A DNA stretch of 64,000 nt, from assembly GCA_951230915.1 (NCBI GenBank), contig OX579636.1:8819001-8883000 (forward strand). Direction: 5' to 3'. Within the stretch, counting starts at the first letter, position 1. Each line of letters starts with the position of its first letter. The DNA comes from Antitrichia curtipendula (lineage: Eukaryota; Streptophyta; Bryopsida; Hypnales; Leucodontaceae). Under the pieces are notes generated by a model that worked only from the letters and a program-made list of their open reading frames with translations, did no database searches and had not been told where the DNA came from. Position numbers and translations under genes: made by a program. Of the stretch, positions 1,959 through 33,893 are shown piece after piece.

Positions 1959-1959
1959 C

Positions 1960-3626: not shown

Positions 3627-3819
3627 TAGAAGTGCATAGAACATTATACTCATTGAATTGTTTAGAATTTATGAAGCATGTATTATGTGAAGCATACACA
3701 ATCATCGAATATGAAAAGTGCTGTTGAAGACTTCGGCAAGCTAGGACAGCTAGAAGTGACAACGTGCAGTATGTAAACCGACATTTAAAGATTTTGAATT
3801 ATAGTACAGAACACAAAAG

Positions 3820-5027: not shown

Positions 5028-5633
5028 ATGTATTGTTTTGGAATGCATTTCCGCGTTCGCAGCTCCAAAGCGTCTCTAGTAATGAGAGACTCTTGTGTGG
5101 TAGCCTCTTTCACACGTCAACTGAGATGGGGGCTCAGAAACGGAAGGCCTATGGAGAGCACGGATGAATATGTGGGTTACATTGAAGAGATACTAGAGTT
5201 GGATTATCGAAATCATTGCATGGCTGTCTTGGTCTATGACTGGGTTTGTGCATCCAAAGATGCACGAACGCCTAATGTAGTGCGAGATAAATATGGATTC
5301 TTGCTTGCAAACTTCAATCACATGGATGGGAAAATCCATGCAGATTCCTTTGCATTCCCTCTTCATTGCCAGCAAGTGTTCTTCTCAGACGATCCCCAGC
5401 GACGAGGTTGGAAAGTGGTGTACAGAACCGACGTCAGAGGGAGACGGCAGGAATTCCAATTCGCATTGAGCACAACCAATGTATTGCGTATTGGGAACGA
5501 CGCAGACTTTGTGGGCTTGCAAGCAACAATGTTAGAATCTGAGCCACAACGTGTTCCAGCAACAATAGGAGGCATGTACATTAGAGCAACCGAGAGACAA
5601 CCTGTAGAACAACGAGCGGGTGATGAAGAGTAG
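5028..5633 (+). pseudogene. CACTA transposase segment, DUF4216 domain
   Basis: A 201-codon frame contains Y-V-G-Y-I-E-E-I-L-E-L-D-Y, V-Y-D-W-V near its middle and a D-P-FAFPLHCQQVFFSDDP-like stretch. This matches DUF4216, the usual C-terminal module of plant CACTA proteins. The first ATG of the frame may be internal because upstream coding sequence has decayed. The C-terminus is polar (Gln/Glu-rich) and ends at 5633. Confidence 0.65.
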
Positions 5634-8732: not shown

Positions 8733-10499
8733 AATTTATTATAAGATTATCTTCTAATTTATTATAAAATCAATTAAACCACTAATTTACTATGTTTATT
8801 TTTCCTATTTTAGTGTTTCTATTATTATGTATAACATCTTTTGGGTACCCTTTTGGGTACATAGTGACAAACTGTTGAATTATATGAGAAATTATCATGA
8901 ATAACAAAAAGGGGACACATGCCATTTTTCCATTAGTTGCAAAAAATTTATACAAATTTTGAAATGGATACAATACTCATTATTCTATTAAATTCAAAAA
9001 TTCTCACAAGGATAAACAATGACTACAAAAACTAAGTCTATACTTTGTTCAATTTCACTCCATGCACCATACATTAAAAATAAATGAATAAAATCCAAAT
9101 GACCAAACATGAATGTTCTAGTATCCTCTGTATTACTGTATACTACAATTTAAAAAAAACTTGAAGCAAAAAGAAATCACGGGTTGGAGGTAAATTAATT
9201 TTAAAGCTAACCACCCCATAGATCCAATTGTTGAGGCAGATTTGGTAATCACTCCAAAATTTTGGTATCAAATTGTTGTTGTCATATCATATTAAACCAC
9301 CTTTAATCCAAACAAATATACTATGGAAATGTCCTTACAAACAAATATCTTGAATTCAAAAAGATTGTAGTGAAAATAATTGTTTTGGTTGCTAAATATA
9401 AATTAAAAAGATTTATATTAATTGTCTAACAAGACAAATATCTTCAAATCTATTCTAAGTAGATGCAACAATGGGTCAAATTGCAACATATAGATCATCT
9501 ATGATAGTAAATGAAATCTCAAATCTTTGATTCATTAAAAACTTTCAAATTCCATTCAAATTAATTTTATCTATTTTTTTCTCTATATATAATTTTTTTT
9601 GAAGCAAATGTAGGTCAACTTTTTACAACAGGGTTGCTAGCGTGTGAGCCTATGAGCCTATGAGCCTGTGAGCGGGAAAGTTTTGTTAGAAAAAAGTAGA
9701 TAATAGACCTATGACCGTGGATGTAGGTATTTTAATTTTTTAGAAATGGGAGTTCATTTTCCCAAAATTTTAGTCACTTACAACCATTTAAAATAAAATC
9801 ATTGCCCCAACTAATAGGATATCACCAGAATTTGATGTCCAAGAATTTGTTTGTACTTTTTTTGTCTTCAAAAGATTCATAACACATTTGAAGGGGTTTT
9901 ATTTTTTAGAAACAAAAAAAATAGAATCAAAAAAAATAAAAAAATAGGGCATTTGGAAGATCTACGTAGTATTAAGATTTAATCAAAAAATGGAAGTCAA
10001 AACATCTTATACCTTTTAGAAGTGGATTAGGGATTGCCTATTTGTACAAATGTGGAGAACATAAAATTATAGATTTCATGATGCCCATTGCAAAGAACGA
10101 CTCCACTACTTATAGAAATTGACTACAAAATTTTATATAAAAATCATTAAAGTCTTTCGGTGAATATTATTAAAAAATCCAAAATCTACAAATGTGACAA
10201 ATTAACAATATAGGCTTTGAAATTCTCAAAAATATTATAAAGTTCTTGAAAAGAAAGGATACAACATCAATCAAAACTCTACAGACAATTGTTTTGTTAT
10301 GTGTTATGGGACATAATTAAGAAGTTATAACAATAGATCATAAAATCACTATAAAAATGATAGTTCATTTTGGCAACAACCCGAAACTGCATGTAGAAAG
10401 AAATGACACCCAAAATGTAGCCATAAAACATACAAATCCAATCATAATGGAAGTCAATACATAATAAACTAACTCAAGAGATATGTCAATCTTCTGAGT
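8733..10499. other. AT-rich interval between the kinase-like gene and the ParB-methyltransferase gene
   Basis: No coding frame of note. It contains one arm (about 9016-9745) of a dispersed repeat found inverted at 34.8-35.4 kb, including a run of GTGAGCCTAT-type short repeats at 9640-9670. If the kinase-like gene has further upstream exons, they should lie here, but none was recognised. Confidence 0.5.
9016..9745 (+). repeat. Dispersed repeat, left copy (inverted relative to 34.8-35.4 kb)
   Basis: The segment starting ACAATGACTACAAAAACTA is closely matched, as reverse complement, by the segment ending near 35357. Matching blocks include the AATCACGGGTTGGAGG and CTAACCACCCCATAGATCC regions (9176-9230), the GCTAGCGTGTGAGC region (about 9638) and GACCTATGACCGT (about 9706). 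The middle part (about 9270-9600) does not match. The two copies could be separate insertions of one repeat family or the ends of a larger unit. Confidence 0.6.
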
Positions 10500-12907
10500 C
10501 TAGGACGCAGTGAATTCAGTCGCGGAATCCTGCGTTGTAGACGACTCAAAAGTCTCTCCACCCTCAGAAGCTAACCTGTCTATAAACTCTAAAACATTTA
10601 AAGCATATGAATGTTTACGAGGTTTTGGTTCCAAGCAACCAAACTCCACGTACTGCGATGCCATTTGCTCGGCATACACGGGAAGAGCCAGAGACTTTCT
10701 AGGACTCAAAAGAAGACTTCGTCTCTTCGTTAATGCAGGAGCATGCATCACTTCTTCACGTCTGAAATCGCAAATTCAACAATGTTAGATTCATACAATA
10801 TATATAATAGCCTATACAAATACAATTTGGAAATCTTGAAACTTACTTACTAGGTCTATCCTTTCGAGCAAACTTCCGAGGCACCATAGTCATGGCATCC
10901 GGATCTTGTGAAGGCTCAACCAACGGCTGCACATTTTTGACTTCAAATGTCACCATAGCCGGAATTATCTTCTTCATTGGTAAAAGGACAGCATTAAAAA
11001 TCTCTTTGTCCGCCTCCAAAGCTAGAATGTGGCGTCCAGTGCCACGACATGCTATAATGGATGCCCCTATGATAAACAATATGCAATTCATTAGTAAAAT
11101 AATTCATGAAATGAATATAAATTGAATGCACAATCATTGAAAACAAAACTTACCAGTAGATGTTGAGCAATCTAGAACCACATCTCCTTCATCAGTTGTC
11201 CCTTTAATGAAGAACTGCAAGAACCTAGCATCTTTTTCGCGAGCCCCCCGCCACGGCCTGGAAGTTGCCTCGTTCATCAATTGGGTGTCCTCTATGGTAT
11301 AATTGATGTACATGTCGTCTTTTCGAAGGTTCACTCTTCCCTTGACCATTGCCTCTGACCACCTATATTGGAAGCTTGCTTTTCCCTTTTTGGTAATATC
11401 CTTCACCAAGATGGTGATTCCAAACTTCAAAGTCTGCACATGTTGGAATTAAAATACATCAAAAACAATAACATAAAAACAAATGTCAAATGATAACCAA
11501 ACCACACGGATTTTGGAAAAAAGTACCGTGGTCATCTTGTCCAAGGGTGACGTCAAATGCATCCGGTTCATGCCCAGCCAATCTTCTTTCTCCACCAAAG
11601 TAGGGTACATCTTACACAGTCCTGCAATGTTGCTCTTTGAAGCGCCACAACGGGAATGAAAAACAATCAAACATCCATTGTCCTGCAAGTGCTTCTCAGC
11701 AAACAGAAACACATTATTCAGTGCCTCACATTCCTTGTCTAAGTTCCACACAGGCACCGCTTGATTGGGGAGTGAGATCTCTGGAACAGGCAAGTTCTCC
11801 GGGCAGTCAAAAAAAATGAGGTCCACTCCTGGATGAGAGTTCACTACACCGTCATCACTTCGAGTCTTCCCTACAGCCATCTGCAATCCCACAATTCTCC
11901 AGGAAGTCAATCATTGCCAAAAATCATCCACATCATTCAATAATACAATCTATTTGTAGATTTTAAAAATAAAATCTTACCTTGCTCAAGAAGTCCATGA
12001 CGTCGGTGTAGCAGTTTGGTTCTTCTTCATTTATGTTATCTTGAACTTTGATAATGGACACGTTTAGAATCAACTCCTCCGACGTGACATCATCATCACC
12101 AAAGATTATTACTGGAATACCTTGCGTGATCATGTCCTCCGTGAGCTCTTCAAGTACTGCTTTTCGCTTCATTCCACTTTGAGATCCGCCTTGCATCTGC
12201 GAGCCTTGGTCTACAATGGATGATGCTACAACTTGACCACCACCTTCGACCTTCTTCTTGCCTTTGCCATTTCCCTTCTCTTCATTCCCTAACTCTTTCT
12301 CCTTCTGTTTCTCTGCCAACTTCACAAACCGCTTCGCTTCTTTCTTCTCTTTGTTTGCCAAAATCTCTTGTTCCTTGTCTTCTTTTTTCTTGTCAGCAAC
12401 GGTCCTCCTAGCAATGGCCCTCTTCTTCTGCGTATCATTGAGAACAGCAAATTCAGGAACATCCAAGTCAATAACCCCGAGGCCTTCCAATGACTTTTGA
12501 AAAGCTGTCTTGGATGGATGGGTGAATGGGAGCGGACAATCAAGGTACCACCCTCCACCGGAAAGATGTGCCGTTGTGAACGTCCGAAGTTGGCTTGCGG
12601 TGTACATGCACTCCTCGGAACTCCGGTCTAGCCATGTGGATAAGAATGGAGGAAGATCCTCTTGAGAAATTGCGTTCTTTGTTACAAGCTCAAACTTGAA
12701 GTAACTGCAAAATAAGACACAAAATTGCATTGGTGACTCTAATGCAATTTCGATTAAAAGCGCATACAATTTAAGTGTAGCTTGCTTGATATTGCGTTGC
12801 TACAAACTATAGAACCAATGCATGCGACTCTAGATAATCGATGAAAATTACATCAATACACAATCAGCATGTTAATAAGGAAATAAAAGTTTTTGAATAT
12901 TTACGTG

Positions 12908-13003
12908 TGAACCAAAAGTTGGGGTACCACAAGGGACTCCAAATACCCCTTTCAGATCCGAGAGGGGTATATGGAGTACCTCATGGTACCCAAACATCTG
13001 GTT
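12908..13003. repeat. Hairpin repeat, copy 1
   Basis: A near-palindrome of about 95 bases: arms GAACCAAAAGTTGGGGTACC ... GGTACCCAAACATCTGGTTC, centre CCCCTTTCAGATCCGAGAGGGG. It lies in the intron between exons 6 and 7 of the ParB-methyltransferase gene. Confidence 0.7.
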
Positions 13004-13286
13004 CGGACGACAATATTCATAAAAATATTGCTCTATAGCAATTGAATGTTCAATTGCTTAAAAAATGCATCTCTTAGAATAAATTTAGCAAGATTGAAAG
13101 AGCTAAATGTAGTCTAGAAAAGCATCTCAAATAATTGCATGCGTGTCAACATTTCAATGCATGATGGAGCAATGCTCTACCTAAACAACCGTTTGATTCA
13201 TAAAAAGAATCAGGACCAAAACTGCCATTATACAAACTAAATCTTCTAAAAGAGTCTAAAATAACTATAATGATTATAGTAGATAA

Positions 13287-13383
13287 CCAAAATCGGGGGT
13301 ACAATGAAGTGCTCCAAATACCTCTTTCGGATCCGAAAGGGGTACTTGGAGTACTTCACGGTACCCCAACCTTTGGTTCTTCG
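13287..13383. repeat. Hairpin repeat, copy 2
   Basis: Arms AACCAAAATCGGGGGTAC ... GTACCCCAACCTTTGGTT around a centre TTTCGGATCCGAAAGG. It is in the same intron as copy 1, about 380 bases away, with different loop-proximal sequence but the same architecture. Confidence 0.7.
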
Positions 13384-15529
13384 GGTGAATCATAAAAAAT
13401 TGTCTCTAAGAAAATTTCACTACTAATCCTACAATCAATAAATCACATTATATGAATGAAAAAATGAGTGTAAAAGTTAAATTTTGGTACCGGAAAATAA
13501 CTCTTCGAACAACTTGATCTGCTCCATCATAAATAGAAAATTTGTCTGATTTCTTGAATTGTCCTTGTGCTTTTAAAGTAGGACCAAATGCTTGATCCCA
13601 TATCTTCCTCCTCCATCCTTCAAGATACTCTGGAAGATGCTCTGGTTGAAGTGGGGAACTCATATTGATGTTGAGGTTGTCGTCCTTTACCACCTTGGCA
13701 AAGTAGTCAGTAGCAGTATCTTGGATCTGAAAATACATTGCACCCAAATATTCATAGTTAATTTAAAAGCAAATGAAAATTAAGGAATTGAAGTTCTAAA
13801 CATTCATTCAAACAAAATTCACATGCTTAATAGTTGAGAAAAATTACAAAGATTATGCTCACCCCTACCCACTAGACGCACTTGTTCAGAAAGGGCAGAA
13901 GCCTGTCTTCGGAAACAGGCCTCGGTGGAAATCGATTTGCTTCTCGAGAGGCCATAGATGAATTCCACCACTTCAAGAACTTGGTTTTCTGGAATGGGGT
14001 AGTGTTGCACGTGGCTACCATCTGCAACTTCTCTAGTGTCATCTTTGGGACTTCGTTCATTGTCCAGTGCCTTTCAACCTGAGAAAATTGAATTTTTCTT
14101 CATTACTACCAAACTTAATACGCCCCAATAGAAATTCAAAATTCTTTAGTGACGTAGAGACAAGACAAACCTCTTCGAGAAATCCGGGACCGTGGTTAGG
14201 GTTTGCAACAGCCAACAACTTCCCCGTCTTTGCATACAACTTGCCCGCCATTAGTTTAGCTCCTGCTCTCATTGCTTCGGCAATACCCTCAGGACTCCTT
14301 TTCTCCTCATCTGTTGTCTCATGGTACTTCCTCACTGCTGCATCTGCTGCCTGTGATATCTCTTGCTGCAAAAGTTCAAGAGCATTTGAATCTCCAATCA
14401 CTAACTCTAATCAAATCCAACTATGCACTATGATCAATTGAAGTATCAAGATTCAAAATCATCCAAGAAATAAGATTCTCACCCGAAACAGGAATGTTGT
14501 GAAAACATCTTGAGGCATAGAGTACCAAGTCTTCCTCGCAAACTGAACACCACAACGTTTTTTTTCCGATGGCCTCAACATTTCATTGAAGCAGTCATAC
14601 GGAAGTTGCCCATATTTTTGAACTCGGTATAGAGTGTGTACCAGGTTGGTCTTCACATGAGAGTCCTCCGTTAATCTGCAATTCAAACACTTGAATAAGT
14701 GATTTTTGAAATGTACAATGATTAGAGTGCATCAAATTCAAATGCGCCACATATAAGATACAAAAACCTCAGATGAATCAATATTACTCACTTGTTTATG
14801 TCATGCATCATCTGCATGACTAACTCGATTCTTCCTTTTGTGTCCAAAACAATACTATCAACCGCATTGTGAAAAGTTGGGTCCCCAGTATATTTCCGGT
14901 CAATCAAATTCATCCATGCAATGCGACGGTGATTACCATCACATACAAAGAACTTCAAATTCTTCATGAACCTCAGTTCGGAAATTGACTCCACATATTC
15001 AACAAATTCATTGTTCAATTTCTTCCACAAGGGGCTCTAGCCGTTCATCTCTTCCTCAGTAAATTCTAAGCTCTCTCCAGCTTCGTTTGTGGTGGAAACA
15101 TAAAATACGGTGGCTCCTTCGCGATATCCATGGACAAACTCATTCTCCAACTTCACAAGGTCTGAAGAGAGTGTCGGCCTTACCATTGGCATTGCCACTA
15201 GTCTGATAAGTGGAATGTTTAGCCGTGAATGTATCTCGGGCCTCATCCTCAAGCTAGCAATACTAGCCACACAATCCACCTCCTGTTGTTGCCGGAGCTC
15301 ATCTTCTAGCATTTCTTTTTCTTCCTCCACATCATCCATGCCATCTATAGCAAGATCTCCTTCATCTTGGCCACCAATCTCTAGCTGCATAGTCTCATTT
15401 GTCCCCGGTGTCATGTAAATTTGTTCATAGTATAAAAACATATTATAATATGTATTGTTGAGTAGCTTCATGGTGACGCTATTTTGTTGAATAACTTCAA
15501 GATGACGTTTCGTGAAGGTTCATGTTATC

Positions 15530-15537
15530 TATTTAAA
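15530..15537 (+). promoter_or_regulatory. TATA-like box in the 5' LTR
   Basis: TATTTAAA followed by AGGACGG, about 70 bases upstream of the LTR ORF start. If it sets transcription about 30 bases downstream, U3 is short (about 150 bases) and R-U5 long, putting the LTR ORF first in the genomic transcript. An identical copy is at 23858-23865. Confidence 0.4.
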
Positions 15538-15605
15538 AGGACGGCTTTGCTTTAGAGTTTCATTGAAGTCCATTAGTGATATTAATTTTCCACTTTATAG
15601 TCAGA

Positions 15606-16064
15606 ATGTCGAACTGGAGGGTTTTTTCAAAGTCCCAAGAGGAAGAAGTAGAATCGGAGCCTGGATTTGAATTTTCATTGTCACAACTACCAGATCAACC
15701 TCTTCTGCCACTAAGTCTTGCGCCGCCGCATGAGCATCTACAAGAAGAAGCTGGGCCTTCTCGTCCGCCAAAGCAACCTCGTGTGGAGCGGCGATGGCAC
15801 GGGAATCTTCAACGTGACGCTCGGGCACTGGTGATTTTGTTGCAGGTTGGATGTGTTGAGCCTGGCAGTCGAGATGTGACATTTGAAGGATGTTTCGAAG
15901 GTCTCAACGTTGATCAATATTACTGTATGATGAAGCCTACTGAAGGAAGTCGTGGTCACCATCGTTGGTTAGAAGGGCCAATGAATCCTTTAACGAAGGC
16001 AGGTCGTGTTGATTACATCGCTGCGACTATCAAGCGCATTCTCAAGTTCTTGCAGATGGAGTAA
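15606..16064 (+). CDS. ORF inside the 5' LTR, 152 aa, unknown function
   Basis: The ATG at 15606 opens a 152-codon frame. The protein has an acidic, Ser/Glu-rich start (MSNWRVFSKSQEEEVE), a Pro-rich middle (SLAPPHEH, GPSRPPKQPR), a basic patch (RVERRWHGNLQRD) and a more ordered C-terminus with CCM-K-P-T-E and an AATIKRILKFLQ amphipathic end. I recognise no domain. The same ORF stands intact in the 3' LTR with one residue changed (His to Arg in PPHEH). Long ORFs in LTRs are uncommon. Either it is an accessory protein of the retroelement made from the leader of its RNA, or it is chance coding in a young repeat. Confidence 0.45.
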   Translation: MSNWRVFSKSQEEEVESEPGFEFSLSQLPDQPLLPLSLAPPHEHLQEEAGPSRPPKQPRVERRWHGNLQRDARALVILLQVGCVEPGSRDVTFEGCFEGLNVDQYYCMMKPTEGSRGHHRWLEGPMNPLTKAGRVDYIAATIKRILKFLQME

Positions 16065-17550
16065 AAAATAGTCTTGGAATTCTATTTTTTTACCTCTAAT
16101 AGGCATTGGTTTAATGTTAGTACTTCAATCCATATTTGAAGTATTTTGTTGAAACTATTTTGTTTGGTTATAGTTGTAGAAGGAAAGAATGGAAATAGTT
16201 TGGACTTTGAAGTGATTTTCCTTCTAAGTTAAAGATAAAGATTTAGATGTGGGGCCAAATATGAAGGCCATTAGGTGTAAGTTGACTTTAGGAGGGAGTT
16301 AAGGGCTGATGTACACTTGTTTAGGTGGGGCAAAAGGTGTTGGAAAAGGGGAGGAAAAGATGGACACTATTCATCTTCTCTCCCAATGTTGTTTTGGGGG
16401 AACCGAGTGTTTGGAAGCTCATTGTGTAATGGGTTTTTGGAATTTGGTAATGAAGATTGGAGGAGTTGTTTATCATATTGTTAGCTTTTCAAATTGTTCT
16501 CTCTTGCTTTATTTGAAGTTGTGAGTTGAGATTTGTGCTTGTTTGAGTGGAGGGAGGTCTGCTGCCTCCTATGAAGAGGGGCTGAGACTTCGACCGACCA
16601 TAGAAAACAGACAGGTCTTTTGTTTAGAATGAAACTTTGATGGAGTGTAGTACATGTTGTTAGCTTTCTATAAAGCTATCATTCATTCAATTTGGAGCAT
16701 TTATGAGTGAGTTGTGAGTGTGAGAAGGTGAGAGAGTCTCTTGTTTTTACCATATATGGACCGAAACTTTGAGAGGTCATAGAAGTTGGACAGAGTTTTG
16801 GAGTGACTTGAAAGTTGTAGGAGTGATAGGAAAATTTGTTAGCTCTTAGAAAAGCTATCAATCTTTTAATTTGAAGAAGAAATGCAAAAGTTATGAGTAT
16901 GGAAGCATAGGAAGGTCTGCTGCCTTTTCTTTTTGAGTGGAGTTTAGGTAGTTTGAAGGTGAAGTTGGAGTTCTTTTAGAGTTTTGAAGATATTTTTGAA
17001 GATGTGAAGGCTTAAAGACTTGAAGATGAAGATTTGAAGAGCTTTGAAGGTCTCCAGTGTGTTGTGGCTTGTGGTTCGTTTTCATTTCTGTTATTCCTAG
17101 CCGGATTTGGAGGCTAGTTGCAATTCAATTTCTGCATTGTAAACTTGTTGCGAGCCGTGGTTATCCAGTAAGCGCTCCTTTTTGTGTTTGTGGCGACGAA
17201 GTGGGGTTAATGGCCCACATGGTCGATCTTATTTGTTGTTCCCACCGGTGAAAGGCGCTTCCTGGTCACCGTGGGTTTGATTTTAGGAGCCAATCTTTCG
17301 GACGGCCAACTCGTGGTTTGGTTGTCCCGTTTTACCCGTCCGAGGCCTTGTTTCTTATAACACACCTTTACCTTTGGCCCTATAGAACCACCACAGGATA
17401 GGTCAACAGAAGATTGAAGTGAAGATCAAGCGAAGATTGAAGAAAAGATTAAGTGAAGATTCAAGTTTTGTTACTTAACTTTCATCTACACTCACAACCT
17501 GCAGCCAGACACCTCGTGTGTTCCCTAAGCGCGCTCCTCTCTACACGACA

Positions 17551-17572
17551 TTTGGTGCTTCCACTGAGAGAG
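17551..17572 (+). other. Probable primer-binding site
   Basis: Directly after the 5' LTR comes TT then TGGTGCTTCCACTGAGAG. Primer-binding sites begin with TGG, matching the CCA end of a tRNA, within a few bases of the LTR. I cannot name the tRNA. Confidence 0.5.
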
Positions 17573-17597
17573 CTTAGGGGCGGTTGTTGAGTTGAAG

Positions 17598-18761
17598 ATG
17601 GGAGACCATGGAGATGATATTGGTGAAAGAAGTACCGAAGATCCTCAAGTTCCTATGGAGGAGCTTTTGGGAGCTTTCACCTTATTCATGCAACAACAAA
17701 GAGTCAACCAGGGTGGGCATGATGCTACCAAGGCTCTCAAGTCTGTTGTTGCCAAGATTGGGAGATTTGACAGTAAAAACATTTCCAAGTTCCTGAGAAC
17801 TTACATCTGTGAGATGGAAGTACAACAAATCGATGAGGCCCGCATGTTGCAGACGTTTGACATGGCGGTTGTCCCTGACATCAGAGAACGAGTACGAGAG
17901 ATTCGTGCGGGTGTTGTTTCTTGGGCAATATTTGCTGAGCACTTGCGAGACGAGTTCTTTGAAGAACACTCAGAGAGGATGACAAAAAGATCCTTCCTTG
18001 AGTGGGTCGAGCAACAACCGGGCAATAATATGGGTCCAACTGAGTTGCTCAGAGATTTTGAGAAGAAATATGCTCAATTACCCTTAGCAGAGAGGCGTCT
18101 TCTTGATACAAGGAAGGCAGAGTTGTTTCTTCAAGCAACTGATGAGGTGCTTGAAGATAGACTTCTTCTTTTGCTTGGAGATCGCACCACTGAAGAAGGA
18201 TTCACCAATGATTGGAGGAGGGTAGAGGAGACGGTTACTCTCTTGGCCAAACAACGACGTGTAAGGTCAAGAGGAGTAGGAGTACGGGTTGACATGGGTC
18301 CTCTCCATGCTCCTAGGACTCCTAAGGTGTCTTTTGCTCCTTCACCTTCGACAACTTTATCTCCTACGATGAAGAGTACCAAGACCAATGTAGAGAATGC
18401 TCTAGAAGAACTTATCAAATGCTTTAAAGAGCTAAGGGTTGAGTTCACAGAGTTGAAGAAATCCAGGGGTTCTTCTTCTTCTTCTCAACCATCAGAGGGA
18501 GCAAGAAAATTTGCTAGAAGATGTGTTTGGTGTGATGAGGAGACTGACCATACTTTGAGAGGGTGCGAATCTTATGAGGAGATGCTCAAGAATGGCCAAG
18601 TCTTCTATAAAGATGGCAAAATTCACGATGCATCTACAGACTCACCTTTGAGAACCAACTTTGGAAGAGGAGGTATGAAAAAGTTCATAGAAGAGAAGGT
18701 GGGAAGATCTAGCCTTGTACAAGTGCAAGGATCTGAGACTTATCACATCCAAGTGGAATAG
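17598..18761 (+). CDS. gag polyprotein of the Ty3/gypsy element
   Basis: The first ATG after the primer-binding site (17598) opens a 387-codon frame. The middle (about residues 50-200) is a retrotransposon gag-like helical region with F-L-R-T, W-A-I-F-A-E-H-L-R-D-E-F-F and FEKKYAQLPLAERR-like stretches. A zinc-knuckle-like CVWCDEETDHTLRGC (C-x2-C-x5-H-x4-C) starts at 18522. The frame ends at TAG 18759-18761 and continues open in the same frame for about 440 bases into pol, a layout compatible with stop readthrough. Gag packages the element RNA in cytoplasmic particles. Confidence 0.8.
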   Translation: MGDHGDDIGERSTEDPQVPMEELLGAFTLFMQQQRVNQGGHDATKALKSVVAKIGRFDSKNISKFLRTYICEMEVQQIDEARMLQTFDMAVVPDIRERVREIRAGVVSWAIFAEHLRDEFFEEHSERMTKRSFLEWVEQQPGNNMGPTELLRDFEKKYAQLPLAERRLLDTRKAELFLQATDEVLEDRLLLLLGDRTTEEGFTNDWRRVEETVTLLAKQRRVRSRGVGVRVDMGPLHAPRTPKVSFAPSPSTTLSPTMKSTKTNVENALEELIKCFKELRVEFTELKKSRGSSSSSQPSEGARKFARRCVWCDEETDHTLRGCESYEEMLKNGQVFYKDGKIHDASTDSPLRTNFGRGGMKKFIEEKVGRSSLVQVQGSETYHIQVE

Positions 18762-20119
18762 TATGCAATTGATGCATCTCCTGTTGAAACTCATGTAGTA
18801 ATGAGGAGAGGAGCCCAAGCCATCAGAAAAGCAACTAGATGGGAAGATCCTGTTGATGCAAGAAGCATCAGAGCTTTCTTACAAGAAGAGGAAAATCATG
18901 ATGAGGTCTATGATGCTTTGGTTGAAGAGAAGCGTGTGAGATTTGATGATCAAGATAGTGAAGAGCCAGCATCAAAAAGAAGACCTCCAGTACAAAGTGA
19001 TGTTGCAAAGGAGATGAAGAAAAGAGTTCCTACAAGGTCGAAGACTGCTAGTCCTGAATTGTGCACCCTGGGGATGCTCCGCTTCCTGACAAAGACTGGG
19101 GACAGTTTAGTGGGAGCAGAAAGGACCAAGAGAAAGAAAACTCTAGCAAGCCAAAGGGGAAGGGTCCTGCTTATAAGCTCCAGTCGGACATTGAGACTTC
19201 CATTGACTTGAAGGGAGTTTTGGAGGAAAGAATCTTGGATGCCAAGATTGAATTCACCTTGAGAGAGGCACTTGGCATTGCCAAGAAAGATTTTCATGAG
19301 CTGATCATAGACATTATCAAAAGAAAGAGGCAGATCACTGCCGAGGCTGTGATGGTGAGTGCTTTAGACACCCACATGACCAAAGATGAAGAAATAGAGA
19401 TTGGTGAAGTTTTTGCCAAGATGGATGAGCCTATGGCTGAAAGAGGAACTGATACGAATCTTCATGTGGTGAAAGAAAGACTAGAGAGGGTGGCCAATTC
19501 AAAGATGGAGGTCAATACTTATAATGTGAAGATTGAAACATTGGAGGAGGAAAATTCAAAGGTTGAGACTCAAACTTTTGAATGTGCCTATGACCACCAT
19601 GTGAAGGGAAAACATGACGAGAAGGTTGAATTTGACCTTCCATTTTGGACTAGAGCTACCACTGAGACCAAAGTGAACCTTGAAGGATTAGATGAGTCTG
19701 TATTTGCTCTTGTTGATCATGGCTCTGAGATCAACATCATCTCTAGAGATGTGTATGAGAAGGGCAAGTGGCCAATTGACACTGAGCATGGTTGGATCAT
19801 GAGAGCAACTAATAGTGGGCGCACTCGATTGCATAGAGCTTGTCCATCTCTTTCTACAAAGATTGGAGATGTAAATGTTGAACAAAATTATTTTGTTCAA
19901 AATTTTAGTGCATATCCTGTGCTTTTGGGCCAACCATTCATCACTGCTTCACGAATGGAGACTAAAGTGTTGGATGATGGATCTCACTATGCCCGAATTC
20001 GAAGCATTGATGGAAAGAAGTCAGTACAGTTTCTAACTGTAAGACCTAATAATGAAAGGCACCGGCTCCAACTTAGGGAGACTCCTCTTCCTACTTCCAT
20101 CAATTTTCCAAATTTCTAG
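18762..20119 (+). pseudogene. pol N-terminal region and aspartic protease
   Basis: After the gag TAG the same frame runs to 19211, but protein sense shifts to another frame near 19055 (HPGDAPLPDKDWGQ onward) and stays open to TAG 20117-20119. The protease has ALVDHGSEINIIS at 19715 (D-H-G instead of the usual D-T/S-G), then PVLLGQPFI as the flap-distal block and a basic tail. The upstream part is charged linker. A further shift lies in a T-run near 20210 before the reverse transcriptase frame. Whether the first shift is programmed or a mutation cannot be decided here; three breaks in pol favour mutation. Confidence 0.7.
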
Positions 20120-20211
20120 AGGGCACAAGTGGAGTATGGGGATCCACTAGTGCCAAGAAATTTGAGGGTGATAGAGTCCCCAATGTACATACCAGTGTTG
20201 GGTGTGGATTT

Positions 20212-22173
20212 TTGAGTGTGACTAGAAATGAAGTTATCAGTATTACAAGTATTCAAGACTTGGACCCTGTATATAAAAGATTTGTGAGAAAAATGGAGAA
20301 AAACCTAAAAAGAGTGAAGATTTTAGAAGAAGAAGAAAGCATTTCTGGTGTTTACGAAGAGAATGGTATGCCAGATGATATCTTGCAAACTTTGCAAGAT
20401 ATAAAGACAAATGAGGATGCAGAGAGGACTACTCATTGTCTAATCAATGTCCACACAGCTGCAATGCATCATGAGATTTCCATGGCAATGACAAAGCTGT
20501 GTTATTCCAATATTGATGAACATAGATCAGAAGCTGCAGTTCATACAAAGTACAAGACTGTGGCAAAAAAGGTGAAGCCGGTGGCTACTCAGCTACCATT
20601 TCACACTCAAGATCACATCAAACAAGCTGAGAAAGAGCCAAGTTTAAGAGAGTCAAGGAGGATTGGACACAAATTTACAAAAAAGACTCTAACTGATCTA
20701 AAGATTGGAGGAGATGATTTCTTGACTGAGCCAGAGAAGAAGAAGTTTCAAGACATGCTTTTGATGCATGGAAAAGCTTTTACTTCTTCACCGGATGAAA
20801 TTGGATGTGTCCATCCCAGTATAATAGCGCCAATGGTAATTTTCACGGTGCCACATGTACTGTGGGATTTGAAACCAATTCCGATACCACGAGCTCTACT
20901 TCCCAAACTGGTTGAATTGCTTAAAGAAAAGATGCACATGGGTATTCTTGAGCCTTCGATGGCTCCATATTCTAATCGATGGTTTACTGTATCAAAGAAG
21001 TCAGGAGCATTGAGGTTCATCCAAGACATGCAACCCGCAAATGGGGTAACAATTAGAAACAAAGGTTCAGGACCTATTGTTGATGAAGTGGCAGAAGCGT
21101 TTGCGGGGCACGCTATTTATTCCATTGGAGATTTATACTCTGGTTATGATCAATTTCAATTAGCTGCTGAGAGCAGAGATTTGACAACCATGAAAACTCC
21201 ACTTGGATTGGTTAGAATGTGCACATTGCCTCAAGGTGCCACAAACTCAGTGGCGTACATGCAAAATGCCATGAATCAAATCTTACGAGATTTTGTTCCT
21301 AAAAAGACAATACCTTTTGTGGATGATATTCCAATAAAAGGTTGCAAGGAGGTCATTAGAGACTTAACTCTTCAAGATAATGGATGTAGAGCATTTGTCA
21401 ATGATCATATCAATGATGTGGACAAAATCTTGATGAAACTTGAAGAGGTGGATTTGACTCTTTCTATTGAGAAATCAAAATTTGGAGTTGATGAGATTCT
21501 GGTGGTTGGACATCTATGTGGACGATATGGACGAAAATCCAACCCTGAGAAAGTGGATGCTATTGGAAGAATGAAACCATGTAGCAGTGTCACCGAAGTA
21601 AGGAGGTTTCTTGGGGCATGTGTCTTCTATCAGATTTGGATTTCCCACTTTGCTCACATATCGGAACCTCTTTACAAGTTATTGAGGAAAAGAAACAAAT
21701 TTGTGTGGCAATATGAGCAAGATTTGGTTATGAAAGAATTGAAGAAGACTTTGAAATCACCACCGGTTCTAAAACAAGTTGATTATGGAAGTGGTAGACC
21801 GGTGATTATAACCGTTGACACAAGTCCAATTGCCATTGGATGGGCAGTTGGGCAAGATGATGTAGAGGGGAGAAGATTTGCCATCCGATTTGGGGCAAGG
21901 ATCCTTACAGAACGACAGAGAGCATATCCTCAAGTGAAAAGAGAACTTTGGGGTGCGCTTACAGCGTTGAAAGCAGATAGAAATTATTTGATTGGAGCCA
22001 ACGTTGTATTGGAAACTGATTGCTTACCCCTACTTGGCATGATAGCTAATTGTTCTTCCCCGGATATTGCTATGCTTCGGTGGATAGCGTACATCAAATC
22101 TCTAAATCATGTTTTGATGCACATTTCTGGGAAACAAAACTCACTAGTAGACATGCTATCGAGAGCTAGATAA
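20212..22173 (+). CDS. pol: reverse transcriptase and RNase H
   Basis: A 653-codon frame. Reverse transcriptase blocks run from GILEPSMAPYSNRWF through FIQDM, YSIGDLYSGYDQF, LPQGATNS to the catalytic FVDD at 21316-21327 (Tyr of YxDD replaced by Phe). RNase H follows with VIITVDTSPIAIGWAVG, then RELWGALTALK and LETDCLPL, ending in SGKQNSLVDMLSRAR. It copies element RNA into DNA and removes the RNA strand. The frame ends in TAA at 22171-22173, and integrase continues in the same frame, so an ordinary fused pol would have been cut here. Confidence 0.85.
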   Translation: MSVTRNEVISITSIQDLDPVYKRFVRKMEKNLKRVKILEEEESISGVYEENGMPDDILQTLQDIKTNEDAERTTHCLINVHTAAMHHEISMAMTKLCYSNIDEHRSEAAVHTKYKTVAKKVKPVATQLPFHTQDHIKQAEKEPSLRESRRIGHKFTKKTLTDLKIGGDDFLTEPEKKKFQDMLLMHGKAFTSSPDEIGCVHPSIIAPMVIFTVPHVLWDLKPIPIPRALLPKLVELLKEKMHMGILEPSMAPYSNRWFTVSKKSGALRFIQDMQPANGVTIRNKGSGPIVDEVAEAFAGHAIYSIGDLYSGYDQFQLAAESRDLTTMKTPLGLVRMCTLPQGATNSVAYMQNAMNQILRDFVPKKTIPFVDDIPIKGCKEVIRDLTLQDNGCRAFVNDHINDVDKILMKLEEVDLTLSIEKSKFGVDEILVVGHLCGRYGRKSNPEKVDAIGRMKPCSSVTEVRRFLGACVFYQIWISHFAHISEPLYKLLRKRNKFVWQYEQDLVMKELKKTLKSPPVLKQVDYGSGRPVIITVDTSPIAIGWAVGQDDVEGRRFAIRFGARILTERQRAYPQVKRELWGALTALKADRNYLIGANVVLETDCLPLLGMIANCSSPDIAMLRWIAYIKSLNHVLMHISGKQNSLVDMLSRAR

Positions 22174-23454
22174 TTTAATGAAAAAGAAATGATGGCTCAT
22201 GAAGATTGTGAAGAATTCTCAGATGGTAGCTACGTCTTGGCTACAAATGGAGAAAGCTCTGCTAATGAAGTCTTACTATTCAAAGAAGAATTATATGAAG
22301 GAAGACTCAAAGAGATCGGGCTTTATTTGAGCACTTTGAGAAGGCAAGAAGGTTGGCTGGACAAGACATTCAAAGACATCAGACATCAATCTTACGGATA
22401 CCTTTTGAAAGATGGATTTTTATGGAAAAGGGCAAAAAGAAAAGATGAAATGCCATTGAGAGTAGTTGGTGATTCTGAGACCAAATCCAAAGTTCTTGAA
22501 GAATTTCATGATACACTTTGGGCTGGTCACAGAGGAGTTTGGGCCACATATACTAAGATCAAAGAATGTTATTGGTGGAAGGGGTTGTACAAAGACGTTG
22601 AAGAGTTTGTGGCTTCTTGTGTAGTGTGCCAACTACAATCTAAGGTGCGGCATAGAGACGAATTACATCCGATTTATCCTTTGGCAATCCATTTTCAATG
22701 GATGATTGATTTGGTTGCCATGCCAAATGCAATATGGGGAATGAAGTACCTTGTTTTGGCACGAGAAGAGCTCTCAAACTTTGTTGAGGGAAGAGCTTTA
22801 AGGACCAAGACAACAGAAAATATATGTCGGTTTATACTTGAAGACATCTTCAGTCGTTATGGCAGCATTGGCCGGATGAGGGCTGATAGAGGAGAGTTGA
22901 ATGCTATTGAAACCAAAGAGTTCTTCAAACGATATGGTGTACAGTTGAAATTAACAACCGCTTACAATCCTGAAGCAAACGGCAAGATTGAGAGGGGACA
23001 TCCTCCAATTATTCATGCTCTAGTCAAAGCCTGTAAAGGCAAGCCTAATATGTGGCCAAAACTGTTACCGTTTGCGCTATGGGCAGACAGAACCACACAC
23101 AGCACAGTTACTGGTTACATGCCTGTGGAACTTATGCATGGGCAAAAACCAATTATGCCGGCGGAGGAAGATATCCCAACATGGGTGTTTCTTTCATGGG
23201 AGGACGGTATAAGCAGAGAAAGGCTGTTGGAACTTCGCATTCAACAGCTTGAGAGATTGCCAGAGAACCTTGACATTGCACTGGAGAAAATGAAGGCAGC
23301 TAGACTCAACAACAAAGAGCGGTTTGACAAGACACACCGATTGAGGATGAAGAAGATTACAGAGGGTGATTGGGTCTTTGTGTTTGATAGCACTTTGAAG
23401 CATCAACACAGTACAGTGCGAAAATTTGCAAAAAGATGGTTGGGCCCTATGTAG
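22174..23454 (+). pseudogene. pol: integrase
   Basis: The frame is shared with the reverse transcriptase but separated by the TAA. The zinc-binding HHCC region includes WAGHRGVWATYTKIKECYWW and CVVCQ. The catalytic triad is visible: Asp in MIDLVAMP (22708), Asp in RADRGEL, Glu in PEANGKIERGH. The frame stops at TAG 23452-23454 after KRWLGPM. The expected C-terminal module (GPYVVIKVHTNGTYSLREL) is in the next frame, 23436-23690, so one base appears gained or lost in the GGGCCC run near 23445. I see no chromodomain. It inserts element DNA into the genome. Confidence 0.75.
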
Positions 23455-23690
23455 TGATTAAGGTGCACACCAATGGCACTTATTCACTTCGGGAATTGGA
23501 TGGGACTTCTCTACGCGTGCCTGTAGTTGGAAAGCGGATCAAAGCCTTTCGACGCAGTGGAAGATTTCATCATGAAGACTTTCAAGAGAATTTTGATCAA
23601 CAAGATATAGATGATGGTCAACAAGATGAAGAGGATGACGAAGACTTGGAGGATGCAGTTGACGAGACCCAAAATATTTTAGAAAACTAA
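23436..23690 (+). pseudogene. Integrase C-terminal module, shifted frame
   Basis: This 84-codon frame overlaps the end of the integrase frame by 19 bases and supplies the GPY/F-like module (VGPYVVIKVHTNGTYSLREL, then KRIKAFRR), followed by an acidic tail rich in Asp, Glu and Gln. It is the natural continuation of integrase after the frameshift near 23445. Confidence 0.65.
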
Positions 23691-23719
23691 ACTTGGCACA
23701 TACCGGAGGATGTGCAGGT

Positions 23720-23733
23720 TTAGAGAGGGTGAA
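23720..23733 (+). other. Probable polypurine tract
   Basis: TTAGAGAGGGTGAA lies immediately upstream of the 3' LTR. A purine-rich run at this place primes plus-strand DNA synthesis in LTR elements. Confidence 0.45.
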
Positions 23734-25878
23734 TGTCATGTTGTAAATTTGTTCATAGTATAAAAACATATTATAATATGTATTGTTGAGTAGCTTCATG
23801 GTGACGCTATTTTGTTGAATAACTTCAAGATGACGTTTCGTGAAGGTTCATGTTATCTATTTAAAAGGACGGCTTTGCTTTAGAGTTTCATTGAAGTCCA
23901 TTAGTGATATTAATTTTCCACTTTATAGTCAGAATGTCGAACTGGAGGGTTTTTTCAAAGTCCCAAGAGGAAGAAGTAGAATCGGAGCCTGGATTTGAAT
24001 TTTCATTGTCACAACTACCGGATCAACCTCTTCTGCCACTAAGTCTTGCGCCGCCGCATGAGCGTCTACAAGAAGAAGCTGGGCCTTCTCGTCCGCCAAA
24101 GCAACCTCGTGTGGAGCGGCGATGGCACGGGAATCTTCAACGTGACGCTCGGGCACTGGTGATTTTGTTGCAGGTTGGATGTGTTGAGCCTGGCAGTCGA
24201 GATGTGACATTTGAAGGATGTTTCGAAGGTCTCAACGTTGATCAATATTACTGTATGATGAAGCCTACTGAAGGAAGTCGTGGTCACCATCGTTGGTTAG
24301 AAGGGCCAATGAATCCTTTAACGAAGGCAGGTCGTGTTGATTACATCGCTGCGACTATCAAGCGCATTCTCAAGTTCTTGCAGATGGAGTAAAAAATAGT
24401 CTTGGAATTCTATTTTTTTACCTCTAATAGGCATTGGTTTAATGTTAGTACTTCAATCCATATTTGAAGTATTTTGTTGAAACTATTTTGTTTGGTTATA
24501 GTTGTAGAAGGAAAGAATGGAAATAGTTTGGACTTTGAAGTGATTTTCCTTCTAAGTTAAAGATAAAGATTTAGATGTGGGGCCAAATATGAAGGCCATT
24601 AGGTGTAAGTTGACTTTAGGAGGGAGTTAAGGGCTGATGTACACTTGTTTAGGTGGGGCAAAAGGTGTTGGAAAAGGGGAGGAAAAGATGGACACTATTC
24701 ATCTTCTCTCCCAATGTTGTTTTGGGGGAACCGAGTGTTTGGAAGCTCATTGTGTAATGGGTTTTTGGAATTTGGTAATGAAGATTGGAGGAGTTGTTTA
24801 TCATATTGTTAGCTTTTCAAATTGTTCTCTCTTGCTTTATTTGAAGTTGTGAGTTGAGATTTGTGCTTGTTTGAGTGGAGGGAGGTCTGCTGCCTCCTAT
24901 GAAGAGGGGCTGAGACTTCGACCGACCATAGAAAACAGACAGGTCTTTTGTTTAGAATGAAACTTTGATGGAGTGTAGTACATGTTGTTAGCTTTCTATA
25001 AAGCTATCATTCATTCAATTTGGAGCATTTATGAGTGAGTTGTGAGTGTGAGAAGGTGAGAGAGTCTCTTGTTTTTACCATATATGGACCGAAACTTTGA
25101 GAGGTCATAGAAGTTGGACAGAGTTTTGGAGTGACTTGAAAGTTGTAGGAGTGATAGGAAAATTTGTTAGCTCTTAGAAAAGCTATCAATCTTTTAATTT
25201 GAAGAAGAAATGCAAAAGTTATGAGTATGGAAGCATAGGAAGGTCTGCTGCCTTTTCTTTTTGAGTGGAGTTTAGGTAGTTTGAAGGTGAAGTTGGAGTT
25301 CTTTTAGAGTTTTGAAGATATTTTTGAAGATGTGAAGGCTTAAAGACTTGAAGATGAAGATTTGAAGAGCTTTGAAGGTCTCCAGTGTGTTGTGGCTTGT
25401 GGTTCGTTTTCATTTCTGTTATTCCTAGCCGGATTTGGAGGCTAGTTGCAATTCAATTTCTGCATTGTAAACTTGTTGCGAGCCGTGGTTATCCAGTAAG
25501 CGCTCCTTTTTGTGTTTGTGGCGACGAAGTGGGGTTAATGGCCCACATGGTCGATCTTATTTGTTGTTCCCACCGGTGAAAGGCGCTTCCTGGTCACCGT
25601 GGGTTTGATTTTAGGAGCCAATCTTTCGGACGGCCAACTCGTGGTTTGGTTGTCCCGTTTTACCCGTCCGAGGCCTTGTTTCTTATAACACACCTTTACC
25701 TTTGGCCCTATAGAACCACCACAGGATAGGTCAACAGAAGATTGAAGTGAAGATCAAGCGAAGATTGAAGAAAAGATTAAGTGAAGATTCAAGTTTTGTT
25801 ACTTAACTTTCATCTACACTCACAACCTGCAGCCAGACACCTCGTGTGTTCCCTAAGCGCGCTCCTCTCTACACGACA
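23734..25878 (+). repeat. 3' LTR
   Basis: Begins TGTCATGTTGTAAATTTG and ends CTACACGACA. It is three bases longer than the 5' LTR near its start. Noticed substitutions against the 5' LTR are in ACCGGATCAACC (5' copy ACCAGATCAACC) and GAGCGTCTAC (5' copy GAGCATCTAC). Flanked on the right by CCGG. Confidence 0.93.
23934..24392 (+). CDS. ORF inside the 3' LTR, 152 aa, unknown function
   Basis: The duplicate of the 5' LTR ORF, intact and identical except for Arg instead of His in the PPHxR segment (one substitution is silent). The copy keeps the TATA-like box at 23858-23865 about 70 bases upstream. Because LTR copies are made together at insertion, intactness here is not independent evidence of selection. 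Confidence 0.4.
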   Translation: MSNWRVFSKSQEEEVESEPGFEFSLSQLPDQPLLPLSLAPPHERLQEEAGPSRPPKQPRVERRWHGNLQRDARALVILLQVGCVEPGSRDVTFEGCFEGLNVDQYYCMMKPTEGSRGHHRWLEGPMNPLTKAGRVDYIAATIKRILKFLQME

Positions 25879-26485
25879 CCGGTGTTTCGATTGGTTGATC
25901 TTCTTGTGTCGAAGCCAGAGGGGACTCATTCTACAATGTAAATTATGAAATTGAAATTATTCTCAAAATTCAATTAATACAAACTTATTAATACAAACCT
26001 TGGTTTGTAGACCCTTATCTTTATCCATATATTATTATTCTAGATTAAATTCATTAGCATTTACATGTTTTAGATTAAATATATTTTGCCTTGAAACTCA
26101 GAAATGACTGGTATGTTGTTCTTCTAGAGGAAATCTACATCAAAAATATTTTGTTCCAATGAGTAAAAGAAAAATTTCAAAATGTAAATGTGATTCTAGA
26201 TCAATTTTCTAATTTTCTAAATATGATAGATTTATTAAAAATACTCCAACGCCAGTCAAATACATATGGTATTTATGAATTTCGAGAATCTATCAAATGG
26301 TATAGTATGAACAGAATTTAGATAAATAAATCTTACAACCAACATATTCATAACAAGCCTATCTCAATCATTAAATTGAAAATATAATAAATGAAGATTC
26401 CATTCTACTCCAAGCCCATGGAGGAAGTGAAACAAACAAATGTCCAAAAAAACAAAAATCAATTTAAATCATCTATGAATTCATG

Positions 26486-26600
26486 TTCTTTGACCGAAAA
26501 CCTTGGTAGAGGGAGCTACCCCCATGAACCCCGTCGGGTCCGACAGGGGTCATGGGGATAGCTCGTGCTACCAAGGTTTTTGGTCAAAGAACTGGAAATG
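26486..26600. repeat. Hairpin repeat, copy 3
   Basis: Arms of about 44 bases (CTTTGACCGAAAACCTTGG ... CCAAGGTTTTTGGTCAAAG) around a centre CGTCGGGTCCGACAGGGG, roughly 89 percent complementary by eye. In intron 1 of the ParB-methyltransferase gene. Confidence 0.75.
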
Positions 26601-27079
26601 TCCCAAAGTGGTGGGTTGCCAACCTTACCTCATTCCTTTTTTTAAATTCTTGGCACAAATAAATATGCATAGTTGTCATTTTCTTTAGATATTTAGGGCT
26701 CTTTATGAATTTGGTTCATCTATGTGAAAATCACTTGTACTCATGCAGCTAAAAGACCTAAATTAGCCGAGATTCTGCTTAATAGAATCTAGCTACCTAA
26801 TATTCTCCCTTTTGGTTCATCATGACAGCCAAATCTGAGTTCCCGGTAGTATTTACGATTCAAAGAACACTAGCAAATACGGCAACATTTCGATAGTGCA
26901 GAAACAAAATCATAGGCATTGCAACAGCACAAAACTGGAAGAAAAAGCAATTTAGTAGTAACCACAGCGGATGCGATTACAAACTAAGAGCTTGCCAGCT
27001 AAATTAAAAACCATGATTCCCTGAGCTTGACCAAATTGTAGATGGCATTCATGCTCTTCACAAAGATCAAAATGATAGC

Positions 27080-27185
27080 TTTTACTGAAAATTGGGGTAA
27101 CGGCAACTACCCCCATGACCACCATCGGATCCGACAGGGGCTGTGGGGGTGGTTGCCGCTACCCCTAATTCCGATCACGGAAGTC
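27080..27185. repeat. Hairpin repeat, copy 4
   Basis: AATTGGGGTAACGGCAACTA ... GGTTGCCGCTACCCCTAATT around ATCGGATCCGACAGGGG. Within tandem unit 1. Confidence 0.7.
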
Positions 27186-27383
27186 GAACAGCTAATGATC
27201 AAGGAAATATTTGGCATTGCAGCCGCGCAAAACTAAAAGAGAAAGCAATTCAGAAGTAACCAAAGCGGATGCGATTTCAGACTAAGAGCTTGCCAACTTA
27301 ATTAAAAACCATGATTCCCTGGGCTTGACTGAATTGCAAATGGCATTGATGCTCATCACGAAGATAAAAATGAAAGCTATGAC

Positions 27384-27482
27384 TGACACCGGGGGTAGCG
27401 GCAACAACCCCCATAACCACTGTCGGATCCGACAGGGGCAGTGGAGGTGATTGCCACTACCCCCAATTCCGATCATGGAAGC
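27384..27482. repeat. Hairpin repeat, copy 5
   Basis: GGGGGTAGCGGCAACAACCC ... GTGATTGCCACTACCCCC around TGTCGGATCCGACAGGGG. Within tandem unit 2. Confidence 0.7.
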
Positions 27483-27683
27483 CGAACAACTAATGATCAA
27501 GGAAATAATTGGCATTGCAACCGCGCAAAACTAAAAGAGAAAGCAATTCAGAAGTAACCAAAGCGGATGCAATTACAGACTAAGAGCTTTCCAGCTAAAT
27601 TAAAAACCATGATTTCCTGGGCTTGACTGAATTGCAGATGGCATTGATGCTCATCACGAAGATAAAAATGAAAGCTATGACTA

Positions 27684-27780
27684 ACACTAAGGGTAGCGGC
27701 AACTACCCCCACGACCATCGTCGGATCTGACAGGGGTCATGAAGGTGGTTGCCGCTACCTCCAGTGTCAATCACGGAAGT
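27684..27780. repeat. Hairpin repeat, copy 6
   Basis: GGGTAGCGGCAACTACCCCC ... GGTGGTTGCCGCTACCTCC around CGTCGGATCTGACAGGGG. Within tandem unit 3; the core has one base changed. Confidence 0.7.
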
Positions 27781-28445
27781 CGAACAGCTACATCCGGCGA
27801 TATTTTTAACTCAAATTTCAAACTCCCGCAAGTGCGTTGGCTGATCCTTGACTTCGTCGACTGGGGTTGCCTCTATCAAAATTTCGGCAGATCAGTGCCT
27901 TGGGCTGGCCAGGAGACAAGATTCTATGATCATACGAGGAAGCAAATCGATTCAACTGATGTCTAACGACCACTAATACTATACAGTCGAATCTGCAAAT
28001 GAACTTGATGCATCGTGCATCTGACGACAACAAGGTTCAGGAAGCCAGTCATTTGCCTGACGGTGCACTTCTCTAAACGGTGCGAAGTTTGATTTGGACA
28101 AAACTTGACTGCAGGTGGGTGATCGAGCTTGAACTTCAATCGGTAACGTAGACCTCAAGAAATTTTGTGTAAATCTGGACTTCCTTAATGAAAAAAATGC
28201 TTCCCATTACGCAAGTCTTACTATGATGTCTGTACATCTGAGAGGATCGGCAGCACTAATTTTAGTCTCTGGTCGCTCATGTGCTTGCTCGTACAACAGC
28301 AGTTGAGAGAAAATAAAGACCGCACCAGAAATTTGACCAAGAAGCTTACCTCGGGGACATCTGTGGAAGGCGGTGGCGTCGCCGCTTCCTCCTCCGAAGT
28401 TGAATCCTCTTGCTCCTTGGCCTGGCTCCGTGTTCTTCTCGTCAT

Positions 28446-29617: not shown

Positions 29618-29756
29618 GTACACTAGAAGAAAAATGGGTCCTATGCAACTAGCCGTTGCAACTAAAAATTGTCCATCCAAACCCATTTTGAGCTGCAGTG
29701 GACACTTTTTTGTTGCAATGGCTAGTTGCATAGGATCCATTTTTGTTCTAGTGGTA
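29618..29756. mobile_element. CACTA-type MITE with 3-bp target duplication
   Basis: A 133-base element (29621-29753) starts CACTAGAAGAAAAATGG and ends CCATTTTTGTTCTAGTG. The inverted repeats extend about 40 bases each side (including ATGCAACTAGCCGTTGCAAC and GTTGCAATGGCTAGTTGCAT). It is bounded by GTA on both sides (29618-29620, 29754-29756). CACTA termini with a 3-base duplication are diagnostic of the CACTA superfamily. It has no coding capacity, so it needs a transposase in trans. Confidence 0.85.
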
Positions 29757-33786: not shown

Positions 33787-33893
33787 GATTGACTAGAAAT
33801 TGGGGTATTGTGAGGGAGACAAAATACCCCTTTCAGATCCGACAATGTTTTTTTGGCTACCTCATAGTACCTCCATTTCTGGTCAATTGTTGG
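33787..33893. repeat. Hairpin repeat, copy 7
   Basis: ATTGACTAGAAATTGGGGTA ... TACCTCCATTTCTGGTCAAT around CCCCTTTCAGATCCGACAATG. The right half is more decayed than in other copies. It lies inside the transposase pseudogene. Confidence 0.6.

Follow-up and report, generated by a model that had tools for sequence, protein, structure and literature searches.

We analysed a 64,000-nucleotide stretch of the genome of Antitrichia curtipendula (contig OX579636.1 of assembly GCA_951230915.1, forward-strand positions 8,819,001 to 8,883,000; hereafter the window), in which the original prediction had placed a spliced plant gene joining a ParB-like domain to a beta-class DNA methyltransferase. Comparison with other copies in the same genome strongly indicates a degenerate copy of a Mutator-like DNA transposon at this locus. 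Its two genes are divergent: gene B encodes a DDE transposase, and gene A is rich in introns. A single intact plant gene was not found: this copy of gene A is broken by a long terminal repeat (LTR) retrotransposon, a stop codon and a non-GT splice donor, and it is a member of a multicopy transposon gene family. The element consists of the following features.

9619-9628, unstranded: left target-site duplication, CTTTTTACAA.
9629-35020, unstranded: the whole transposon copy, 25,392 bp long (approximately 14.9 kb after subtraction of the LTR insert), delimited by collinearity and copy-to-copy border comparison.
9629-9648, plus strand: left terminal repeat, CAGGGTTGCTAGCGTGTGAG, short and imperfect, followed by GAGCCTRT-type subterminal repeats.
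10500-10761, minus strand: gene A exon 11 with the stop codon.
10847-11066, minus strand: gene A exon 10, remainder of the S-adenosylmethionine (SAM)-binding half (GRHILALEAD).
11154-11433, minus strand: gene A exon 9, its 3' end being the motif I position (VVLDCSTSTG).
11527-11880, minus strand: gene A exon 8, carrying the motif IV position (FFDCPENLPVP) and encoding the N-terminal half of the methyltransferase-like domain.
11981-12704, minus strand: gene A exon 7.
13491-13726, minus strand: gene A exon 6.
13881-14078, minus strand: gene A exon 5.
14171-14365, minus strand: gene A exon 4.
14483-14675, minus strand: gene A exon 3.
14792-15405, minus strand: downstream section of gene A exon 2, with the HRR-type motif and an in-frame TAG at 15037-15039.
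15409-25878, plus strand: LTR retrotransposon within gene A exon 2, assigned to the Ty3/gypsy-like type by visual inspection of its open frames.
25879-25930, minus strand: upstream section of gene A exon 2, separated from the other by the insert; the C3 copy has no interruption at the insertion site.
28350-28445, minus strand: gene A exon 1.
31451-33610, plus strand: gene B exon 1, Mutator/IS256-type DDE transposase, with a frameshift near 32480 and stops at 32871-32873 and 33093-33095.
34207-34490, plus strand: remnant of the gene B downstream exon.
35001-35020, minus strand: right terminal repeat, reverse complement CAACAACGCTAGCGTGTGAG.
35021-35030, unstranded: right target-site duplication, CTTTTTACAA.

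Stretches on C3 and C10 were collinear with positions 9647-35020 of the window at an identity of approximately 93-95%, indels aside, decreasing to 91-92% in part of gene A intron 1; both counterparts are free of the LTR element. Border comparison of the copies placed the ends of the transposon at CAGGGTTGCTAGCGTGTGAG (from 9629) and CTCACACGCTAGCGTTGTTG (up to 35020). Four other copies were flanked by the 10-bp duplications AATTATAGGA, GAATTAATAG, GATGGACATC and TAGTGGTATC, and the target-site duplication thus measured 10 bp in all five copies with both ends read; for two C2 copies only the left end was read, the right ends lying outside the stretch compared. Mutator-like elements (MULEs) are described in the source cited as having target-site duplications of 8-11 bp and terminal inverted repeats of 14-500 bp (PMC6446971). 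The element displays a duplication within this range, imperfect terminal inverted repeats of approximately 20 bp and a DDE transposase of the Mutator/IS256 kind. A 240-nt inverted repeat, matched to about 90%, lies directly outside the element on both sides (9016-9259 and 35119-35353). It was rejected as the element ends because similarity to other copies stops at approximately 9629 and 35020, and is perhaps an older element that the transposon landed in.

By structure comparison, gene B has an IS256-like DDE fold; its product also shows a GCM/WRKY-type finger resemblance. Against Pfam, no family matched the transposase at cut-off. Approximately 1.3 kb adjoining the gene B remnant (at 34490) are missing in the window and present in L042, L044 and L046 (copies on C10, at C3:33.5M and on C4). 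Within this section, the downstream exon in L044 contains a CxC..CxH SWIM-like stretch scoring 12.4 bits at a cut-off of 19.6.

With regard to gene A, eleven exons with GT-AG borders and a single frame of 1146 codons had been proposed. Eleven minus-strand exons do exist, with exon 2 split by the insert, and GT-AG borders were found in eight of the nine junctions downstream of it, the exception being the donor after exon 5 (13880), which is not GT. Joined in a single frame, the ten pieces on the downstream side of the insert give 1091 codons and a final stop, with the TAG as an internal stop; the upstream pieces bring the total close to the proposed length. All three proposed motifs were located, DGNHRRIAW in exon 2, DCPE in exon 8 and CSTSTG at the end of exon 9, in the order IV then I. 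No known domain was found in exons 3-7 (11981-14675). Due to the LTR insertion in exon 2, the in-frame TAG and the non-GT donor, the window's copy of gene A is a pseudogene. The retrotransposon had gone unnoticed in the original prediction. Its LTRs, each approximately 2.14 kb long, differ by two mismatches between 15414 and 17550, or by four among 2140 aligned bases if the edges are included, strongly indicating a young insertion. It represents a secondary insertion and, as judged from the copies compared, no part of the Mutator-like transposon.

The exon structure of gene A is unlikely to reflect chance, since queries with exons 2-11 found counterparts of all ten, in order, in one C10 copy (L040+L036, 35-65% identity depending on the exon) and of nine in one C5 copy (L041+L035), and since exons 8-11 have at least 241 matches in the 400-Mb genome. 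Gene B has 68 matches in the same genome. Among 95 gene A places listed, gene A occurred within 15 kb of 45 of these 68 matches, within 25 kb of 46 and within 50 kb of 51, and every pairing was divergent, as in the window. Random placement yielded on average 0.85 and at most five pairings within 25 kb (300 trials). This pattern strongly indicates that genes A and B travel together in many copies.

Selection on gene A was assessed by the ratio of nonsynonymous to synonymous substitution rates (dN/dS) in 20 codon comparisons over exons 7-11, codons with stops being excluded. Two close pairs from two other subfamilies had values of 0.15 (L018/L025) and 0.16 (L017/L022). Among the subfamilies of the window, L018, L017 and L027, six comparisons resulted in 0.19-0.27 at a dS of approximately 1 to 1.4. 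L036 gave 0.24 in two comparisons, in which dS was close to saturation, and no value could be computed for the two with L037.

The C-terminus of gene A had been predicted to be a beta-class methyltransferase, in which motif IV precedes motif I, and this assignment is well supported. Three distant copies exceeded the PF01555 cut-off (L035, 41.4 bits; L036, 37.8 bits; L037, 38.1 bits). A family profile of seven sequences matched six chains in total. CcrM aligned over the whole domain (E 2e-8), and the others were two chains of DpnA (8e-6), MboIIA, a putative modification methylase and an N4C methyltransferase. Across the own genome, PF01555 gave 112 matches at E ≤ 10, one of them above cut-off; nearly all lay at the motif I part of the profile, and the first four loci were read. 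Profile membership and motif order strongly indicate that the C-terminus is homologous to beta-class N6A/N4C DNA methyltransferases. The catalytic motif IV, (D/N/S)PP(Y/F/W), was not found in the window, where the position reads DCPE. The profile alignment placed DPPY of CcrM opposite DVPE of the gene A family profile. Of the 21 genome rows that cover the position (a 22nd does not), 20 read DC(P/L/Q)E and one reads DCPK. The position is DVPE, DVPD and NLLD in L036, L037 and L035, respectively, and D(V/I/M)P(E/D) in the seven of nine database proteins that cover it. An aromatic fourth residue thus occurred in none of the 21 genome rows, three distant copies and seven database proteins, indicating that the standard catalytic motif is absent from every copy and relative in which it was read. 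Motif I ranges from the canonical DIFAGTGN (L035) and DCTAGTG (L036) to DCSTSTG in the window, and a glycine of this motif is missing in many copies as well. The proposal that the element carries its own modification enzyme is doubtful, since motif IV is non-canonical wherever it was read.

The ParB-like assignment of the N-terminus is a suggestion at the motif level. The HRR-type motif and the preceding MVRPTL-type stretch are kept in two distant copies, L040 (NGNHRRIAW) and L041 (DGNYRLLAW), which strongly suggests that the N-terminus contains a conserved domain of the DGNHRR type whose fold is uncertain. The ParB_N profile, which matched in 10 of 14 control genomes, had no match in the own genome at E ≤ 0.001, and neither Pfam nor PDB searches gave a ParB match; the PDB profile search found nothing. 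The nearest library matches, both below threshold, were DndB (15.8 bits at a cut-off of 29.1; E 0.0075, 0.02 and 0.041) and DGQHR (11.8 bits against 58.85, E 0.15). A single-sequence structure model of the domain was poor (predicted local distance difference test, pLDDT, 41.8), and its best Foldseek match (E 0.29) carries no meaning. Comparison of the HRR-domain profile with the methyltransferase profile revealed no relation.

Searches outside the genome were performed at several levels. Among 5.8 billion proteins, none of 6284 candidates matched the spliced gene A protein at E ≤ 0.001. We read this result as a probable artefact of search length limits, the exons being far shorter than the query, because the gene B search yielded 198 proteins at E ≤ 1, and that with a profile of gene A exons 8-10 nine at E ≤ 0.001. 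In viral and prokaryotic contigs, 119, 15 and 121 stretches fitted the patterns, and none was confirmed. In phage records, the HRR-domain piece had no match and the L035 piece had 706 at E ≤ 1, all below 60% identity, with a best E of 0.01; most of the best 15 of these 706 are annotated methyltransferases. The original prediction had offered an old transfer or a eukaryotic mobile element as alternatives. A recent transfer is not supported, as no close phage or bacterial relative was found. The second alternative is supported by the at least 241 gene A matches, the divergent linkage to the transposase and the 10-bp duplications, which point to a multicopy mobile element.

Palindromes of the TCGGATCCGA type (at most one mismatch) occurred eight times in the window at an expectation of 0.65. 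Seven of the eight lie in introns of the element, each at the centre of a longer imperfect palindrome:

12952-12961, unstranded: core TCAGATCCGA, gene A intron 6.
13327-13336, unstranded: core TCGGATCCGA, gene A intron 6.
26534-26543, unstranded: core TCGGGTCCGA, gene A intron 1.
26907-27800, unstranded: array of three 298-bp tandem repeats within intron 1 of gene A, with one TCGGATCCGA-centred palindrome per repeat unit.
33833-33842, unstranded: core TCAGATCCGA, gene B intron.

Similar palindromes were found in L031-L034, L042 and L046; L041 has a variant core. Since VANC targets often form tandem repeats (described in PMC5735166), our guess is that the gene A protein might bind these palindromes.

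Within the element, a CACTAG...CTAGTG foldback resembling a miniature inverted-repeat transposable element lies at 29621-29753. Elsewhere in the window, we found genes of a CACTA-type transposon at 957-5633 (Transposase_21, E 3e-48; DUF4218, E 1.8e-30), a protein-kinase fragment at 7259-7843 (E 3.3e-8) and a weak Integrator subunit 2 match at 46692-47345 (23.8 bits at a cut-off of 25), probably an ordinary host gene. L039 (C3:42414462-42420461) contains CACTA-type transposase-like open frames, identified by eye, upstream of a gene A copy of the L018 type; they probably represent a nested insertion.

Based on these results, it is very likely that a Mutator-like transposon carries gene A. Selection would keep the gene while the elements multiply, since its protein would help the element; the most likely way would be binding to the element's own DNA, plausibly at the intronic palindromes. 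The methyltransferase-derived domain, no longer engaged in canonical methylation, may protect or mark the element against host silencing, in parallel to the VANC proteins of Arabidopsis VANDAL elements, which counter silencing by other means. An action of the gene A protein on the element's own DNA is predicted as fairly probable, and an anti-silencing role, proposed by analogy, is tentative. The statement as a whole, a Mutator-like element whose gene A is under selection, binds its own DNA and protects or marks it against silencing, has about an even chance of being correct. More specifically, a bacterial beta-class methyltransferase may have turned into a self-recognition protein, the N-terminus reading the intronic palindromes and the C-terminal domain holding or altering a chromatin or DNA state such that the element escapes silencing; this version is rather doubtful.

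Several observations weigh against this interpretation. The ends of one C1 copy, from a more distant subfamily and the only one tried, were looked for and not found. Among the matches listed, 17 of the 68 transposase matches have no gene A within 50 kb, where it may still be present. Within the window's own subfamily, dN/dS was 0.33-0.49 (seven pairs), and it reached 0.89 for L017/L028, a close pair with stops; such values would be expected if many copies decay after insertion. Against PF01555, the window's gene A (20.1 bits) and the L018 subfamily (16.4 bits) remained below the cut-off of 26.7. Several other copies or stretches compared have no palindrome, three of the seven intronic palindromes share one tandem array and hence are not independent, and intronic palindromes also have other explanations.

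Among the alternatives, gene A may act as a structural partner in transposition without taking part in silencing, comparable to the accessory proteins of other two-gene Mutator elements; it might, for instance, bind the ends or guide the choice of target. The constant divergent layout and the subterminal repeats at the element ends would fit such a function, for which a methyltransferase-derived domain would be an unusual choice, and we consider it somewhat unlikely. Still less likely is that gene A encodes a functional DNA methyltransferase of the N6A or N4C kind, marking the element's DNA with a motif IV that is changed and still works. The SAM-binding half is kept, motif I is canonical or nearly so in some copies (L035, L036), and the first D and the P of D-x-P-E are retained in many. 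However, no relative read has the aromatic residue at the fourth position and many copies lack a motif I glycine, and changes of this kind are generally known to abolish activity in this enzyme family. Mutator-like elements tend to pick up fragments of host genes, according to the source cited above (PMC6446971), and many copies are broken; that a single element lineage captured gene A as a passenger and retained it by chance is nevertheless highly improbable given the low dN/dS over large divergence and the exon-by-exon conservation in distant subfamilies. A domesticated host gene of bacterial origin among accidental repeats, suggested by the intron-rich structure and the bacterial relatives of the domain, is the least credible of all because of the target-site duplications, and is also at odds with the multiple copies, their shared borders and the transposase linkage.

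In the literature searched, we recognised no account of a transposon with gene A. Compared to MULEs and the bacterial IS256 family, the element shares the IS256-like DDE fold, the GCM/WRKY-type finger resemblance, the 10-bp duplication and, in one copy, the sub-threshold SWIM-like stretch; it differs from MULEs by its Pfam result, its short terminal repeats and a second gene with a methyltransferase-derived domain. The adenine methyltransferases CcrM, DpnA and MboIIA resemble gene A by profile over all or part of the domain, whereas gene A is eukaryotic, spliced, fused to a long N-terminus and has DPPY replaced. According to the parts of PMC8885841 drawn on here, N4CMT of bdelloid rotifers is a beta-class N6_N4_MTase that contains SPPY, is encoded by an allelic pair and is active in E. 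coli; its domain was stated in that 2022 paper to have no eukaryotic homologs. Gene A appears to share the PF01555 family, the permuted order and introns, and differs in being a multicopy transposon gene without SPPY; if our interpretation is true, it would be a eukaryotic branch of this domain family. Known transposons with epigenetic tools are few and include, as outlined in PMC12730594, VANDAL elements, carriers of SET genes in the HarbingerS and MuDR families and fungal DNA transposons with TET/JBP dioxygenases. The fungal elements likewise take an epigenetic-modifier gene aboard and differ in enzyme family, hosts and transposase lineages. A multicopy, selected gene derived from a beta-class methyltransferase would, if confirmed, add a new tool to this set, and its many natural copies could serve as a test bed for a methyltransferase fold working without the catalytic motif. 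Arabidopsis VANDAL with VANC is a further comparison: both are Mutator-type elements with an accessory gene, and VANC targets are often tandem repeats (PMC5735166), as part of the palindromes are here. This likeness is drawn from descriptions; unlike VANC, the accessory protein of the element presented here is methyltransferase-derived, and its anti-silencing function is a proposal.
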